Assembly (NCBI RefSeq): GCF_001425235.1
Contig: NZ_LMEA01000011.1
Coordinates: 62,001 to 126,000 of the forward strand
Reading direction: 5' to 3'
Source of the DNA: Devosia sp. Root413D1
GTDB taxonomy: Bacteria > Pseudomonadota > Alphaproteobacteria > Rhizobiales > Devosiaceae
Length of the DNA stretch: 64,000 nucleotides
How positions within the stretch are numbered: position 1 is the first letter of the stretch; each line of letters starts with the position of its first letter. Position numbers and translations under genes: made by a program. Below, piece after piece: positions 2-31,698 of this stretch. Below the pieces are notes generated by a model. The model did not search any database and had not been told where the DNA came from. It saw only the letters and a list, made by a program, of their open reading frames with translations.

Positions 2-877
2 GTCGCCGACCTGTTCGACCTGCAGGATCGCATGGCCGCTGAAGTGGCGAGCGCCATCCAGCCCTCCATTCGCCGCGCCGAAGTCGAGCGGGCGCGCAAG
101 AAGCGTCCGGAGACGCTTGCCGCCTATGACCTGGTGATGCGCTCCCTGCCCCACCTGTGGTCGCATAGCCCCGACGACAACCGCGAGGCCATCGACCTGC
201 TGGCCCGGGCCCTGGCGCTCGAACCGCACTACGGCCTTGCTGCAGCGCTGGCCGCCTGGGCGCACGGCCAGCAGGTCGCCTATAACTGGACGGCGGATTT
301 CGCCGCCGAGCGCCGCACTGCTGGTGCGCTGGTCGAAACCGCCTCGCAGCATGTCGCTGACGATCCAACCGCGTTGACGGCCCTCGCCTCCGCCATGATG
401 ATGCTCGGCGGCGACGTGCGGCAGGCCGCGACCTTCGCTGATCGGGCGCTGGAACTGGACCCGAACCACGCCTGGGCCTGGATGCGCCGCGGCTGGGGCC
501 ACGTCTATCTCGGCAACCCCGAAGACGGCCTTGCTGCCTTCGAGCGCTCGGCGCGGCTCTCGCCGATGGATCCGTTCGCCTTCAACGTGCATCTGGGCAT
601 GGGGTTGGCCAATTTCGCCGCCGGCCGGCCACAGCAGGCCATCGACTGGGCGCAGCGCGCCATGTCGGAGCGCCCCGGCCTCACCTGGCCGCATCGTGAC
701 CTCGCGGTCTACTTCGCACACCAGGGCGATCTGGCGGCGGCCCGCGACGCGCTGGAGCGTTTCCAGCGTGCGCATCCGGATGTCACCCTCGCTTCGATCG
801 GCGATGGACTGCGCTTCATGTACCCGTCATTGCTGGCGCGCTATCTGCAAGGCCTGCAACTGGCCGGATTGCAATAG
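2..877 (+). CDS. TPR-repeat protein, C-terminal part (5' end outside window)
   Basis: The frame is already open at base 2, ahead of the first ATG at 32, so the gene begins outside the window. The first visible residues (VADLFDLQDRMAAEVASAIQ) match the stretch that leads into the TPR region of CadC-type regulators and of class III adenylate cyclases with TPR tails. About 290 residues are visible, and helix pairs with TPR spacing run through most of them (ALALEPHYGLAAALAAWAH, ALELDPNHAWAWMRRGW, SARLSPMDPFAF). No DNA-binding or cyclase domain lies inside the window, so which of the two classes it belongs to cannot be decided. Probably a cytoplasmic regulatory or scaffold protein. A related but shorter protein is at 27152. 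Confidence 0.8.
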   Translation, partial: VADLFDLQDRMAAEVASAIQPSIRRAEVERARKKRPETLAAYDLVMRSLPHLWSHSPDDNREAIDLLARALALEPHYGLAAALAAWAHGQQVAYNWTADFAAERRTAGALVETASQHVADDPTALTALASAMMMLGGDVRQAATFADRALELDPNHAWAWMRRGWGHVYLGNPEDGLAAFERSARLSPMDPFAFNVHLGMGLANFAAGRPQQAIDWAQRAMSERPGLTWPHRDLAVYFAHQGDLAAARDALERFQRAHPDVTLASIGDGLRFMYPSLLARYLQGLQLAGLQ

Positions 878-26590: not shown

Positions 26591-26874
26591 GGTGCTTCGC
26601 CGAGATAGCTGACCTCGATTCGCTGGAACAGCGGGCCTTCCTTCATGGTGCCGAGCCACTTGTCGAATTCGGCAACATCCTTGAAACCCGCCTTCTTCGC
26701 ATCCGCCTCGGTCACGGCGGATGGCGACATGTCGTCGATCCGGCCGATCTGCAGCAACCCCACCTTGGTCTTCAGCGTCCCGCCCGGCTTCACTGTCGGC
26801 CTGGTCCAGCGTCGGAACTGCAGCGTGACATCGCCGCGCTTGATCGCCTCCAGCACCTCGAGCTTCAGCAGCAT
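26587..26874 (-). CDS. ASCH/PUA-like small protein
   Basis: A 95-residue protein that resembles ASCH-domain proteins: MLLKLEVLEAIKRGDVTLQF followed by RRWTRPTVKPGGTLKTKVG, then IGRIDDMS and a final RIEVSYLG strand. The ASCH fold is linked to RNA or modified-base binding; no activity is proven for this type. GGAGGA lies seven bases ahead of the ATG at 26874. It overlaps the exported-protein gene (ATGATG/TGA), so both are translated from one transcript. Confidence 0.72.
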   Translation of the reverse strand: MLLKLEVLEAIKRGDVTLQFRRWTRPTVKPGGTLKTKVGLLQIGRIDDMSPSAVTEADAKKAGFKDVAEFDKWLGTMKEGPLFQRIEVSYLGEAP

Positions 26875-26893
26875 AGATCTTTCCTCCAAAAGC

Positions 26894-26915
26894 TGGCGCG
26901 GGCGTTAGGGCTCGA
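26894..26915 (+). other. degenerate copy of the tRNA-Leu 3' end (possible attachment-site remnant)
   Basis: Compared with 30644-30665 (CCA end and T-arm of the tRNA-Leu gene, same orientation), 18 of 22 positions are identical by eye. It lies in the 277-bp gap ahead of the TPR gene, so the two copies would bracket the whole TPR-peptide-YcaO-TfuA block. The match is imperfect and no integrase is present, so this may be chance in GC-rich DNA. The rest of the gap 26875-27151 shows no gene I can support. Confidence 0.3.
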
Positions 26916-27151
26916 GATCGAGGACGCTTGCGGAACCCTGCGTCCGAGGGCCCTGCAGAACGTTCCGCCCCTGCCCTTTCAAGCCTTCCGATGTCCGGCG
27001 GGCCGGTGTCAAGGTCGCAGCTCGACGGCTCGAGGACCGCCTGAGCTTTCGGAGCGACGGTTGCGGTGAAGGACTACGCGCTGACCACATCTGGCCGAAA
27101 GCGGCATCGCGAGCAGCTGCCCGAAGCTCGCATCTGTGAACTGGGAGTTGA

Positions 27152-28507
27152 ATGACCTCAGCGATGCCCCAGCAAACTTCATTAGTTGCAGATATCGTCG
27201 TCTCGGTACTTCCGCGCGCAAGAAATAGCGGCTACGGTCAGGACAGGAGACGGCCATTCAATTCAATCGGATTTCCTGATGTGAGAACTGACCTGTCACA
27301 GCCCCCGGGAACAGTTGCAGAACGAACGACCGGCACTATTCCTCGACTTCTGATTGTTCCACCACGCCACAGCTCGCCACTGGTTGACGTACAAGATCAC
27401 AAGATCGCGCTGTCGCTTGTCACAGATGTTACGCTCAGCCTCTGCAGGAGCCACCTCTACGAGGTAATCGCGCCACACTCGGCAATGAAGCTGACGAGCG
27501 GTCCAATCTGGGAAGAGATGCTCCCCGCCGACTACGTCGTTCTGACTGACGTCGTGCTTTGCCAACGAGAGCTGCCATTTGCGTTGATGAGTATCGACGT
27601 GGTCGCAACGGGTCTGGGCCGGCGAATCTACCGCAGTGAAGTCGAGCTGCGCTCGGGTGCGCTGCAAGGCATCCATGACAGTTTTTGCGCAGTACTCGTC
27701 GATAAGATCTGCGGCGAAATCGGCGCCTACGAGTTGCAGCAATACCGACGGACCGGCGCCGCATCGGCATATGTCCACTACCTGATCGCCATGCAACGGC
27801 GGGATCGCAACGATCTCAACTCCTTGCTTCGCGCCCAGAAATCGCTGGAGCGCTCGATCCAGTTGTCGCCGGACTTTGCGCCGGCGCTGGCCCAGCTGGC
27901 GCGAACCAAGACACTGGAGTGGCTGGAGCGCGGCAGCGCGGATCGCACGCTGCTACACGAAGCTCGACATCTGGCGCAGCGCGCTTACGGCTATGAACCG
28001 AACGACAGCGCCAGCCTGCGCGAGATCGGCCACGCCACATTGTACCTGCATGACCTCGCCGGCGCCCGTGAGCTTTTCGAGGCGGCCCATGAGTTCGCCC
28101 CGAACCATGCTGACCTGCTTGTCGACCAGGCAGACGTTCTCACCCACCTGTCCCGGCACGACGAAGCCGAAGCCAAGATCTCGCGGGCTCTTTCCCTCAA
28201 TCCGCTGGCACCGGACGACTATTACTGGATCGCCGGAGCCGTCAGCTTCTTCCGGGGCGAATACCGACAGGCCCTGACGAGATTGTCAGCGATGAAGTCC
28301 CCGGGGCTGGCGCTGCGCCTGATGGCAGCCTCCGCGGCGATGCTGAACGACAAGCAGGCTGCGGCAGCATACCGGGAGCAAGCGTTGGCCCGGGATCCCG
28401 GGTTCACGGTTGAAAAGTGGCAAAGCCTCTATCCGGCCCCCAATCCGGACGACACGGCGCACTATCTCAACGCTTTGCTTTTGGCTGGCTTCTCTCGCCA
28501 CGCCTAA
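27152..28507 (+). CDS. TolB-like/TPR protein at the head of the YcaO-TfuA operon
   Basis: A 451-residue protein without DNA-binding or cyclase domain. Residues 60-190 resemble the TolB/FlgO-like segment of CadC-type proteins (HKIALSLVTDVTLSLCRS, ADYVVLTDVVLC, GLGRRIYRSEVELRSG). From about 200 on it has TPR repeats (SIQLSPDFAPALAQLARTK, AYGYEPNDSASLREIG, AHEFAPNHADLLVDQADVL, ALSLNPLAPDDYYWIAGAV). The ATG has GGGAG five bases upstream. A hand count of 27181-27300 gives 60 G+C in 120, well below neighbouring genes (e.g. 40 of 60 at 6541-6600), which suggests transfer. It lies 54 bp ahead of the peptide gene. A role as regulator or scaffold of that system is inference. Confidence 0.78.
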   Translation: MTSAMPQQTSLVADIVVSVLPRARNSGYGQDRRRPFNSIGFPDVRTDLSQPPGTVAERTTGTIPRLLIVPPRHSSPLVDVQDHKIALSLVTDVTLSLCRSHLYEVIAPHSAMKLTSGPIWEEMLPADYVVLTDVVLCQRELPFALMSIDVVATGLGRRIYRSEVELRSGALQGIHDSFCAVLVDKICGEIGAYELQQYRRTGAASAYVHYLIAMQRRDRNDLNSLLRAQKSLERSIQLSPDFAPALAQLARTKTLEWLERGSADRTLLHEARHLAQRAYGYEPNDSASLREIGHATLYLHDLAGARELFEAAHEFAPNHADLLVDQADVLTHLSRHDEAEAKISRALSLNPLAPDDYYWIAGAVSFFRGEYRQALTRLSAMKSPGLALRLMAASAAMLNDKQAAAAYREQALARDPGFTVEKWQSLYPAPNPDDTAHYLNALLLAGFSRHA

Positions 28508-28531
28508 ACTCTATCTTAATTCGATTGTGGG

Positions 28532-28554
28532 CCTCCTGCGGTGTCATCAGGAGG
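28532..28554 (+). promoter_or_regulatory. hairpin that hides the ribosome site of the peptide gene
   Basis: CCTCCTG (28532-28538) is the perfect complement of CAGGAGG (28548-28554), with a nine-base loop. The right arm contains the AGGAGG that serves the TTG start at 28562. Folding of the RNA would therefore block initiation until it is opened by a ribosome, a protein or temperature. Confidence 0.7.
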
Positions 28555-28561
28555 ATTGCAA

Positions 28562-28657
28562 TTGAACACTTCATCCGCTTCGCCGAAGATCGCCCAGGTT
28601 GCCAAGGCCCTGCCGGCTCTGCCCCGCATTCCCAGCCGCAAGTTCTTCCGGCAGTAA
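28562..28657 (+). CDS. 31-residue basic peptide, candidate RiPP precursor
   Basis: A short gene starting with TTG, seven bases after a full AGGAGG, and ending three bases before the YcaO start. The peptide begins MNTSSASPK and ends IPSRKFFRQ. It has six Lys/Arg and no acidic residue or cysteine, with a Ser/Thr-rich first third and an Ala/Leu/Pro-rich middle. The perfect ribosome site, the lack of a separate site for the YcaO gene and the tight spacing argue that it is translated and coupled to YcaO. A precursor for YcaO-TfuA modification is the best reading; a mere leader peptide for coupled translation is the alternative. Confidence 0.62.
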   Translation: MNTSSASPKIAQVAKALPALPRIPSRKFFRQ

Positions 28658-28660
28658 TCG

Positions 28661-29857
28661 GTGGACGGCGCCGTTTCGACGCCGTCAAGCTGGTTTGAGT
28701 ATGGCGAACGCAATACGCCGGCCGCGCTGACCGTTGAGCGATTGCGGCCGCATCTTGCCTCGCTCGGCATCACCCGACTGGCGCGCCAGACTGGCCTCGA
28801 CCGTATTGGCATCCCCTGCTTCTCAGCCATTCGGCCCGCTGGACTGACGCTTAGCGTCAGCCAGGGAAAGGGGCGCGACGATGCCAGCGCCATGGCATCG
28901 GCGCTGATGGAGGCCGCCGAGTTCACCATTGCCGAGCGATCGGAAGTCCCTTCGCGGCTTGCCACTGCCGATGCCCTTCGGCTGGCCGGCGAGAGCTACT
29001 ACGATGCGGCCCGCCTCTTGCCACCCGATCGCCCGCTGCCCACCGGCGCGCCGATCCGCTGGCTGCAGGGAAGCAGTTGGCCCCACAATGAGCCCCTCTG
29101 GATCCCCCGCGACGCCCTGACGATCGGCGAGGACGCCGCCGACCTGCCGGAAGTTGGCCGCAGCACCAACGGCCTCGCCTCGGGCAACACCACTGAGGAA
29201 GCGCTGTTTCACGCCATCTGCGAGCTGGTGGAGCGAGACGCCACCTCCCTGTGGTCACTCCTCCCCGACGCCGCGAGGCTCGCGACGGAGTTCCCGATCG
29301 AGGCCGTGGATGATGCCGTGATCAGGGCATTCGGCAAACAGATAGGGGATGCCGACCTCGAGCTTCGGCTGTTCGACCAGACCACGAACCTCGGCGTTCC
29401 GTGCGTCATGGCAGTGATCAGCGAGCGTGCCTCCGACACCGCCAGATTGTTCGATATCGCCGCCGGCTATGGCTGCCACCCGACTGGCACCCGCGCCATT
29501 GGCCGCGCCATCACCGAAGCGGCGCAGACCAGAATTACCAACATCGCGGGCGGTCGGGACGATTTCCTGCCCGCCGAGTATTTCGAGCAGGCAGACGAGT
29601 CGATCGCGTTCCTGGAGCATCCTGGCCCAGGCGAGGCGCGCCCCCCCGCTTGGCTGCCCCCTGATACGCCATTGCCGCAATTGCTCGAGCAGTTGGCGGA
29701 GCGCATTGGGCCGACCGCCGAGATCGTCTGGAGCGAACTGGGCGGTGCCCCCTACGGCATCTCAGTGGTGCGGGCGCTTTCTGCGGTGCTCGAGGACAGG
29801 GAAACCAACGTCAACTGGTCACCTGGTCGGCGGGCGCTCGAGGTGCTGGCGCTATGA
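28661..29857 (+). CDS. YcaO-domain cyclodehydratase/thioamidation enzyme
   Basis: A 398-residue YcaO protein, which activates a peptide amide with ATP. ATP and magnesium motifs are present: SQGKGRDDASAMASALME (residues 67-84), the glutamates of TTEEALFHAICELVERDA (178-194), and GCHPTGTRAIGRAITEAAQT (271-290). The C-terminus (RRALEVLAL) lacks the PxPxP tail typical of azoline-forming YcaO enzymes, and a TfuA gene follows with an ATGA overlap. That pairing is known from thioamide-forming systems. Start is GTG at 28661; there is no good ribosome site of its own, so coupling to the peptide gene is likely. Confidence 0.92.
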   Translation: MDGAVSTPSSWFEYGERNTPAALTVERLRPHLASLGITRLARQTGLDRIGIPCFSAIRPAGLTLSVSQGKGRDDASAMASALMEAAEFTIAERSEVPSRLATADALRLAGESYYDAARLLPPDRPLPTGAPIRWLQGSSWPHNEPLWIPRDALTIGEDAADLPEVGRSTNGLASGNTTEEALFHAICELVERDATSLWSLLPDAARLATEFPIEAVDDAVIRAFGKQIGDADLELRLFDQTTNLGVPCVMAVISERASDTARLFDIAAGYGCHPTGTRAIGRAITEAAQTRITNIAGGRDDFLPAEYFEQADESIAFLEHPGPGEARPPAWLPPDTPLPQLLEQLAERIGPTAEIVWSELGGAPYGISVVRALSAVLEDRETNVNWSPGRRALEVLAL

Positions 29858-30549
29858 GGGTGCTGTTCGTCGGGCCATCGCTTTACGGCGAAACGCCGGA
29901 TCTGGCGGGTATCTCGATCCGCCCGCCGGCAAAGCAGGGAGACATCGCCCAAGCCGTCCTCGACGGCGCCGAGGCCATCGGCCTGGTTGATGGTTTTTTC
30001 GATGCCGTGGCGGCGCCGTGGCACAAGGAAATCCTCTTCGCCCTCGCACGCGGGGTGACCATGCTCGGATCATCCTCGATGGGGGCGCTTCGTGCGGCCG
30101 AATGCGCGGCGTTCGGCATGGTTCCCATCGGCGAAATTGCCCAGGCGTACTACAGCGGGGCTCTCGACGATGATGCCGCGGTCGCGATTTCCCACGGCCC
30201 CGAAGAACTCGGCTACCCTCCGTTGACCGAGCCGCTGGTCAACGTAAAGCCGACGCTCGATCGATTGCGCCACCGGCAACTTATCTCCGAGGCGGAACAG
30301 CTGCGCATCTGGGACCGAGCCTGTCGGCTCTATTTCAAGGACCGCCCGCTGGAAGCGCTGCTCCCCCCAGACGAGCGCCAGGAAATCCTTGCCGCCTATC
30401 GCGAGCACCGGGTCAACCGCAAGGCCGAGGACGCGCTGCTGCTGATCGCCGAGCTGAAGCGCAGCACCGTACGCGGCAGCCCGCCCTCGGTAGAGCCGCA
30501 GCATCCTTCGTTCTTTTCCAGGCACATCCTCCCTGGCATGCTCGGGTGA
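29854..30549 (+). CDS. TfuA-like protein
   Basis: A 231-residue TfuA-domain protein (family named after the trifolitoxin locus of Rhizobium). The conserved blocks are all visible: VGPSLYG at the start, RPPAKQGDIAQAVLDGAEAI (23-42), APWHKEILFALARGV (54-68) and GSSSMGALRAAECAAFGMV (72-90). TfuA proteins assist YcaO enzymes, probably by delivering sulfide in backbone thioamide formation. It overlaps the YcaO gene by four bases. After it comes a 94-bp gap and then the tRNA-Leu gene on the other strand. No transporter or protease gene is in the cluster. Confidence 0.92.
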   Translation: MRVLFVGPSLYGETPDLAGISIRPPAKQGDIAQAVLDGAEAIGLVDGFFDAVAAPWHKEILFALARGVTMLGSSSMGALRAAECAAFGMVPIGEIAQAYYSGALDDDAAVAISHGPEELGYPPLTEPLVNVKPTLDRLRHRQLISEAEQLRIWDRACRLYFKDRPLEALLPPDERQEILAAYREHRVNRKAEDALLLIAELKRSTVRGSPPSVEPQHPSFFSRHILPGMLG

Positions 30550-30643
30550 CGCCAGTTGCGTTCAACGAGCGAGACATCAGGCCCACGGTCAGCCACACTG
30601 CCCCACCGGCTCAACGGCCATGCGGATGATTCCGATCTTTGAG

Positions 30644-30729
30644 TGGTGCGGGCGGTGGGACTCGAACCCACACGGGGATACCCCCTCCGGATTTTAAGTC
30701 CGGTATGTCTACCATTCCATCACGCCCGC
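30644..30729 (-). tRNA. tRNA-Leu (anticodon UAA)
   Basis: The 86-base cloverleaf reads GCGGGCG at the 5' end and CGCCCGC plus ACCA at the 3' end, so CCA is encoded. The anticodon stem CCGGA/TCCGG carries the loop CTTAAAA, giving anticodon TAA. A long variable arm (GGGG-TAT-CCCC) fits a class II leucine tRNA, and the T arm GTGGG-TTCGAGT-CCCAC is normal. Its 3' end points towards the TfuA gene. Confidence 0.95.
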
Positions 30730-30816
30730 GGCCGCTGAGCACTGCCACATCGGCTCGGACACTGACAACCACACAATTTGCCGCCATAGTCATTGGCGGC
30801 AGAAGGAGAGTGCACC

Positions 30817-31698
30817 GTGCCCAACGCGCGACCGAACCTGGTCGGAGTCAACATCTACGGCGGCCTTGGGAACCAGATGTTCCAGTACGCGGCCGGGTTG
30901 ACCCTGTCGGAGCGACTCGGGACGGAGCTGTGTTTCGACATCCGCCACTACGAGCGCAGGGATCGCGGCGACCGCCGGCTGGGCCTGCGCGACTTTGGCA
31001 TCGAGCTGCAATCGGCGCGGGTGCCGCCATTCAAGATCGGCCGCCGAATCGGCGCCGCGCTGCGGCTGTTGCCCAACCCCTTCCGCGGCGGCTCACGACT
31101 CGTCAGCATCGAGGGGTTTGATCCACGGTTTTTCGAGTTGAAGGCCCCCGCCGCCTTGTCCGGCTTCTTCCAATCCTGGCACTATTTCGAAGGGCACGAG
31201 GCATCGGTTCGCCGGGCATTCGACGTGCAACGGCTCGCAACGCCGCGAACCGCCGAACTCGCCGCCGAGATCGCGGCGGCGAAAAACCCTGTCGCCGTCC
31301 ATATCCGGCGTGGCGATTACACTGACTCGCCCGAGACGATTGCCTTCTTCGGTCTGCTCCATGCCGACCACTATTTCAGGGCGAAATCCGCCCTGGAAGC
31401 GAGAGTGGAGGAGCCCACCTACTTCCTGTTCAGCGACGATGTCGACATCGCAAAAGCCGAACTGGCAGGCTGGCCGGGGTTGCGGCCGGTGACCGGCTTC
31501 TCGGCCTACGAGGATATGTTCCTCATGTCCTCGTGCCGGCACTTCATCATCGCGAACTCGACCTTCAGCTGGTGGGCCGCGTGGCTTGGCGCCGCGCCGG
31601 ACAAGCTGGTTATCGGGCCCCAGCAGTGGTTCGGGCCGGACTATCCGTATCCGGTCGATCCGACCGATCGCTCGCCGCCGGGCTGGCTTCTGGTCTGA
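30817..31698 (+). CDS. family 11 glycosyltransferase (alpha-1,2-fucosyltransferase type)
   Basis: A 293-residue GT11 enzyme. The N-terminal motif GGLGNQMFQYAAGLTLSERL and the donor-binding motif VAVHIRRGDY are diagnostic, and the later segment SRHFIIANSTFSWWAAWLG-like (SSCRHFIIANSTFSWWAA) completes the family pattern. GT11 members transfer fucose from GDP-fucose to surface glycans or lipopolysaccharide. The start is GTG at 30817 with AAGGAGAG six bases upstream. No other polysaccharide gene surrounds it, so the acceptor is unknown; the place next to a tRNA suggests acquisition. Confidence 0.92.
   Translation: MPNARPNLVGVNIYGGLGNQMFQYAAGLTLSERLGTELCFDIRHYERRDRGDRRLGLRDFGIELQSARVPPFKIGRRIGAALRLLPNPFRGGSRLVSIEGFDPRFFELKAPAALSGFFQSWHYFEGHEASVRRAFDVQRLATPRTAELAAEIAAAKNPVAVHIRRGDYTDSPETIAFFGLLHADHYFRAKSALEARVEEPTYFLFSDDVDIAKAELAGWPGLRPVTGFSAYEDMFLMSSCRHFIIANSTFSWWAAWLGAAPDKLVIGPQQWFGPDYPYPVDPTDRSPPGWLLV

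Follow-up and report, generated by a model that had tools for sequence, protein, structure and literature searches.

Four consecutive genes on the forward strand of Devosia sp. Root413D1 are likely to form a cassette for a ribosomally synthesised and post-translationally modified peptide (RiPP), present in a few soil bacteria, in which a small precursor would be thioamidated by the enzyme pair YcaO-TfuA (estimated probability about 0.7). The cassette lies in a 64,000-nucleotide stretch of contig NZ_LMEA01000011.1 (positions 62,001 to 126,000), referred to here as the window and numbered from its first letter. The order of the genes is a tetratricopeptide repeat (TPR) gene, a 31-codon open reading frame (ORF), ycaO and tfuA. 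The ORF is a real gene whose C-terminal core is under protein-level selection, and the unit is four genes; we infer that the peptide is the substrate of YcaO and TfuA. The features are as follows.

27152-28507, + strand: TPR gene, first in the cassette (TPR families in Pfam; first in-frame start taken, start codon uncertain)
28520-28566, + strand: predicted RNA hairpin of 18 pairs, some of them G-U, with the ribosome site and TTG start in its 3' arm (by folding)
28549-28554, + strand: AGGAGG ribosome site of the peptide gene, within the hairpin
28562-28657, + strand: precursor peptide gene, 31 codons, TTG start (stop codon 28655-28657)
28607-28654, + strand: candidate core, 16 C-terminal residues, ALPALPRIPSRKFFRQ
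28622-28648, + strand: PRIPSRKFF, invariant in five genomes
28661-29857, + strand: ycaO, GTG start, without a ribosome site of its own (Pfam PF02624, 2.8e-51)
29854-30549, + strand: tfuA (Pfam PF07812, 3.9e-37)

A sequence-only reading of the window had described a TTG-started 31-codon ORF with an AGGAGG, ending three bases before a ycaO gene that lacks its own ribosome site and overlaps tfuA by four bases. These details agree with ours: no ribosome site stands in front of the GTG at 28661, and the two enzyme genes, both above the Pfam cut-off, share 29854-29857. The same reading counted three genes in the unit, of which the peptide, YcaO and TfuA stand, while the upstream TPR gene belongs to it as well. 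Four further findings go beyond that reading: the TPR gene, its shortened form in the window clade, the hairpin, and another cassette in the window genome (L030/L050), whose precursor is unrelated.

A peptide gene with a selected core

The peptide (MNTSSASPKIAQVAKALPALPRIPSRKFFRQ) contains six lysine or arginine residues and no aspartate, glutamate or cysteine, as had been stated before. A close YcaO (E <= 1e-120) is present in 5/19 genomes of the genus, which make up the window-clade sample (n=5): the window genome, D. insulae DS-56, Devosia sp. 66-14, genome G014 and the metagenome-assembled genome (MAG) 337R. A degenerate pattern for PRIPSRKFF, run independently of YcaO, matched once in each of the same five genomes, always beside the close YcaO, and in none of the 14 genomes without one; the reversed pattern, used as a control, had no match in the 19. 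An even sample of 397 genomes of the order, which does not contain the other four carriers, gave the window's own match only. The search for aligning peptides beside YcaO-TfuA pairs, put forward in the sequence-only reading, was thus positive in five Devosia genomes, where the core is selected, and negative elsewhere in the family, where other loci carry unrelated small ORFs (5/136 genomes, the same five).

PRIPSRKFF is unchanged in the five genomes while five of its nine codons vary silently. Comparison of the window with D. insulae gave two silent and no replacing changes in the core (16 residues); pairs that include MAG 337R have 4.5-5.5 replacing changes, which fall outside PRIPSRKFF. The N-terminus varies by both substitution and insertion, giving lengths of 31, 31, 33, 35 and 63 aa; the longest, in MAG 337R, has its stop further from ycaO and keeps the core. 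Within the core are one invariant Pro-Arg (one LPR), one invariant Ser and no Cys, in a single copy without repeat. A tree of 48 YcaO proteins unites the five carriers in one clade (support 100/100) and leaves its sister group unsettled.

Curated families gave no match above cut-off for five precursors; a viral-domain match (21.3 vs 27 bits) was read as chance. We considered whether the window core is related to other precursors and dropped the idea, the best shuffle-test values (p 0.029 for L039 and 0.044 for L037) not being significant for 16 tests; the L006 precursor, similar by eye, reached p 0.118. An aromatic pair near the C-terminus in 12/21 precursors (H and M allowed) was a post hoc observation without control and was not used.

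YcaO and TfuA enzymes

The window YcaO matches the solved MJ1094 (3.6e-27) and TfuA matches PDB 6xp8 (1.6e-28). YcaO residues M83, H184 and A288 lie within stretches aligned to MJ1094 and were equated by eye with Met-84, His-188 and Ala-305, which are preferred in TfuA-associated YcaO proteins (PMC8120280). The C-terminal end of YcaO (...SPGRRALEVLAL) lacks PxPxP, in agreement with the earlier description. For both enzymes the best NCBIfam matches are the McrA-thioamidation equivalogs TIGR03266 and NF033432, with scores below their cut-offs (164.3 of 365 and 140.5 of 235.2 bits, respectively).

Sister cassettes carry other small ORFs

A total of 40 YcaO loci from whole genomes (L numbers) were compared, three weaker matches being left out. 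A TPR-gene homologue stands directly upstream of YcaO in 33 of the 40; none was found in L009, whose contig ends after 112 bases, L021, L023, L024, L025, L027 or L044. Among the Devosiaceae loci the homologue is present in 28/29, and the same 28 have a small ORF between it and ycaO (27 located by script, L040 by reading). Outside the window clade these ORFs, 47-237 aa in length, are unrelated to the PRIPSRKFF peptide. Precursor-like ORFs thus differ between clades that have kept the enzymes. In 13 neighbourhoods compared with ORFs >= 90 aa, a limit at which smaller genes would be missed, only the TPR, YcaO and TfuA families occur in all; the groups ranking next consist of antisense or alternative-frame ORFs that overlie these three genes, and no E1/RiPP recognition element (RRE) or dehydrogenase partner is common to most of the 13.

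Tandem repeats run through the ORF in three loci with the TPR gene upstream, L043 (42 bases x 6.5), L045 (153 x 3.6) and L042 (72 x 3.3), as expected of multi-core precursors, which counts in favour of the RiPP reading. A further repeat (42 x 3.5) runs through the ORF of L023, where no TPR gene was found upstream. The in-frame repeats of these four ORFs include AAHILYGADTR and RSDAASHHYFPNRG, and judged by their sequences the ORFs look like multi-core RiPP precursors in their own right. On plasmid pC5.7c of Rhizobium rhizogenes (L080, 5763-11365) there are two YcaO genes. A small ORF precedes each of them at a short distance, and the second of these ORFs has imperfect repeats.

The window genome itself holds a second cassette (L030/L050) with an unrelated 72-aa precursor beginning MRYVIIG and a 652-aa first gene; two matches are also present in D. 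insulae, G011 and G014, and one in G005. Peptides starting MRYVIIG or alike form one group, with a leader common to some other precursors. A leader common to all other cassettes was rejected: tested against 15 other sister precursors, the L013 leader beat shuffles in five (p <= 0.005; L010, L019, L038, L039 and L082) and not in ten. Neither the window precursor nor L005 matches it, and given the ten sister precursors and L005 without a match, the window clade is not alone in lacking this leader.

A TPR protein resembling part of a regulator

The window TPR gene corresponds to the C-terminal part of longer BTAD-type proteins at other loci. The first-gene product is 619-670 aa long at ten other loci that were examined; L081 deviates, with 589 aa on the opposite strand. 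Of three such proteins scanned, BTAD (PF03704) is above cut-off in L079 (1.7e-13) and L051 (2.1e-8) and just below it in L053 (21.0 of 22.1 bits); the public annotation of the L079 protein is 'BTAD domain-containing putative transcriptional regulator'. The domain is absent from the window TPR protein (Pfam, E limit 0.001) and from L058 (limit 0.01). First-gene ORFs of the window clade span 412-507 aa and begin shortly before the TPR part, their starts being uncertain. The N-terminal halves of five homologues, used as tblastn queries, had no match up to E 1 in the window, L046, L048, L049 or L058, and L047 gave two chance matches of 45-46 residues (E 0.27 and 0.45); the positive control, L050, was found every time. 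By sequence, then, the window-clade protein looks like a regulator-like protein minus its DNA-binding (BTAD, SARP-like) half.

The ratio of replacing to silent substitution rates (dN/dS) within the window clade is 0.11-0.20 for the TPR protein, 0.12-0.21 for YcaO and 0.15-0.24 for TfuA. The low value for the TPR protein indicates that the remaining part is under purifying selection and useful without the lost half. It may bind the peptide, a role for which the TPR domain of Escherichia coli YcaO, which 'might also contribute' to substrate binding (PMC13063428), offers a precedent. The lost half and the missing leader coincide in one clade and so count as a single event, not as a correlation. 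At the left edge of the window (32-877) lies part of another TPR-like protein, by eye similar to the C-terminal part of such regulators.

A predicted hairpin over the precursor start

The window hairpin has a folding energy of -20.8 kcal/mol (z -2.0); z is -2.2 in D. insulae, -3.0 in Devosia sp. 66-14 and -5.9 in G014 (-33.5 kcal/mol). Aligned across the five sequences, 90.9% of 88 cells pair, vs 34-50% in slid controls, and three pairs have changed on both sides in a compensatory manner. The Shine-Dalgarno (SD) site is mostly paired (probability of being unpaired at most about 0.25) and the start fully paired in 4/5 clade members vs 3/78 machine-picked control starts. The window has 28 AGGAGG sites, counting both strands, and one is closed at ribosome site and start; the unpaired probability at the peptide's AGGAGG and start is 0.001 at both places. 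In the mRNA of the window clade such a fold could hide both the ribosome site and the start codon.

A start-locking hairpin as a rule for all cassettes was rejected, the SD site being mostly paired in 9/34 precursors vs 9/78 control starts. Because five of those nine belong to the window clade, and the control starts were machine-picked, the hairpin is claimed for this clade only. A terminator scan found none at the hairpin, and that reading was dropped. Scanning 26850-30700 revealed no sigma-70-like promoter, and no Rfam family matched the hairpin, apart from one chance match on the other strand (P17, E 1.2, 11.9 of 45 bits).

Genomic surroundings

The nearest named relative at the locus is D. 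insulae DS-56 (YcaO identity 93%), whose tfuA (L002 1-240, contig 72) is cut by a contig end and is 68% identical over 75 aa, vs 93% for YcaO; the contig end may be poor sequence. After tfuA the window has a tRNA-Leu(taa) on the opposite strand and, between this and a glyoxalase-like gene, a glycosyl transferase family 11 gene (30793-31698; PF01531, 7.4e-24). D. insulae and G014 have neighbour genes of the cassette in common with the window. The G014 locus (L048) has the same tRNA-Leu after tfuA and is otherwise syntenic, but contains no match to the glycosyl transferase gene between the two flanking genes. In Devosia sp. 66-14 and MAG 337R (L047 and L049) the cassette is at a different place, with a single 30% match to the window neighbourhood beyond the cassette genes. 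The cassette may be mobile between genomic sites.

Proposed function and alternatives

We propose that YcaO would use ATP to activate a backbone amide within the core and that TfuA would help to deliver sulfide, giving a thioamide. Thioamidation is our best guess because the core contains a single invariant Pro-Arg and lacks Cys, and because the cassettes have no azoline partner in common. The Pro-Arg bond is the foremost candidate site, since the thioamide of thiovarsolins sits between Pro and Arg (PMC6511847). The hairpin would hold off translation of the precursor until some signal opens it, YcaO would probably be translated by reinitiation after the peptide stop, and the core would be freed by cellular peptidases. 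As the precursor lacks a leader of the kind common to some sister precursors, its recognition would depend on either the core or the TPR protein. A more elaborate version, which we consider rather doubtful, is a leaderless thioamide RiPP in which recognition has passed from the leader to the TPR protein, a SARP-type regulator minus its DNA-binding half, and the start hairpin silences the precursor, perhaps as a cationic proline-rich peptide harms its own cell. The basic, proline-rich make-up of the product recalls proline-rich antimicrobial peptides.

Several observations weigh against a thioamidated precursor under hairpin control. The peptide family is young and confined to one clade and five genomes, and shuffle tests against 16 other precursors revealed no significant similarity of its core to any of them. 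The TfuA of D. insulae is visible only in part, at the contig end. The MAG 337R hairpin is weak (z -0.6) with an open start (0.43), and covariation weakly beats shuffles with five sequences, the observed value being reached by 18/500 for cells paired and 73-78/500 for covariation measures. A ribosome-arrest leader would likewise account for a conserved C-terminal end beside the stop codon. The ORF could accordingly be a regulatory leader peptide that governs ycaO-tfuA through stalling or coupling of the ribosome at its conserved C-terminal end, the enzymes acting on another substrate; a short ORF three bases before a ycaO without ribosome site, conservation confined to the C-terminal end and a start locked in a hairpin all agree with this. 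We consider it unlikely, as the 47-237 aa ORFs of sister cassettes, some with tandem repeats, are implausible stallers and the 63-aa ORF of MAG 337R keeps its core further from ycaO.

It is also quite improbable that the pair modifies a cellular protein, as with McrA, the peptide being incidental or a cofactor. The best NCBIfam matches of both enzymes point that way, and there is a precedent in other Pseudomonadota, where a YcaO thioamidates a ribosomal protein (PMC13063428), but the scores fall far under the equivalog cut-offs and the precursor-like ORFs differ between clades while the enzymes persist. YcaO enzymes as a class form azoline or other dehydrated rings as well as thioamides, and the invariant Ser of the core could carry such a ring instead; this is very unlikely given the lack of Cys, of a PxPxP end and, among ORFs >= 90 aa, of an E1/RRE or dehydrogenase partner common to most of the 13 neighbourhoods, and the presence of TfuA. 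A thioamidated precursor remains our preferred reading.

Comparison with known systems and significance

Azol(in)e-forming clusters typically have a Cys/Ser/Thr-rich core, an E1/RRE or dehydrogenase partner and a PxPxP end; the window core, in contrast, has one Ser and no Cys, and its YcaO no PxPxP. The absence of Cys also separates it from trifolitoxin, an azol(in)e-modified peptide (PMC9670871) from which tfuA takes its name (PMC4603692). Close in outline are the thiovarsolins (varA, varY, varT and others), where a small precursor likewise adjoins YcaO and TfuA, there is no specific protease, Pro-Arg lies in the core, and precursor, YcaO and TfuA suffice for thiovarsolin B (PMC6511847). The window unit differs in its single core as opposed to repeated APR/GPR cores, in lacking heme-oxygenase-like, ligase, amidinotransferase and major facilitator superfamily genes, in having a TPR gene and hairpin, and in being alphaproteobacterial. 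The YcaO-TfuA pair that makes the Gly465 thioamide of McrA (TIGR03266, NF033432; PMC5589413) is homologous, MJ1094 and 6xp8 aligning with the window proteins, but its substrate is a large protein. A thiocarboxylated carrier, with TfuA as sulfide supply, has been described (PMC13063428).

TfuA-related clusters of Rhizobium and its kin (PMC8120280; L079, L080 and L082) share the small ORF, YcaO, TfuA and upstream TPR-gene homologue; they differ in a full-length first gene (622-667 aa) and in small ORFs unrelated to the window peptide. A survey of such clusters lists 613 cluster families and 797 precursor families, and states that in 2021 all known YcaO-TfuA thioamide RiPPs came from Actinobacteria, whereas 70% of unique predicted clusters were proteobacterial (PMC8120280). 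With that many precursor families published, the window cassette is a variant within a known kind, and the earlier description of it as minimal and unlike described classes was overstated, the more so as three genes suffice for thiovarsolin B. Open-licence literature yielded no description of RIPSRKFF, of TfuA in Devosia or of TfuA with BTAD/SARP, and for TfuA, tetratricopeptide and YcaO together E. coli YcaO only. As far as open-licence main texts go, the peptide family, half-lost regulator and hairpin are undescribed; the peptide may be among the 797 published families, whose supplements lie outside the literature searched.

The cassette is compact, its precursor having a single candidate core of 16 residues, no leader that can be recognised and three partners, and it offers a direct test of proteobacterial thioamide formation. 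The genus also has sister cassettes whose first genes are full length and whose precursors are different; these provide natural controls for the roles of the TPR half and the leader. If true, control of a RiPP precursor by a hairpin that locks its start would be an additional regulatory layer, and one to look for in other systems.
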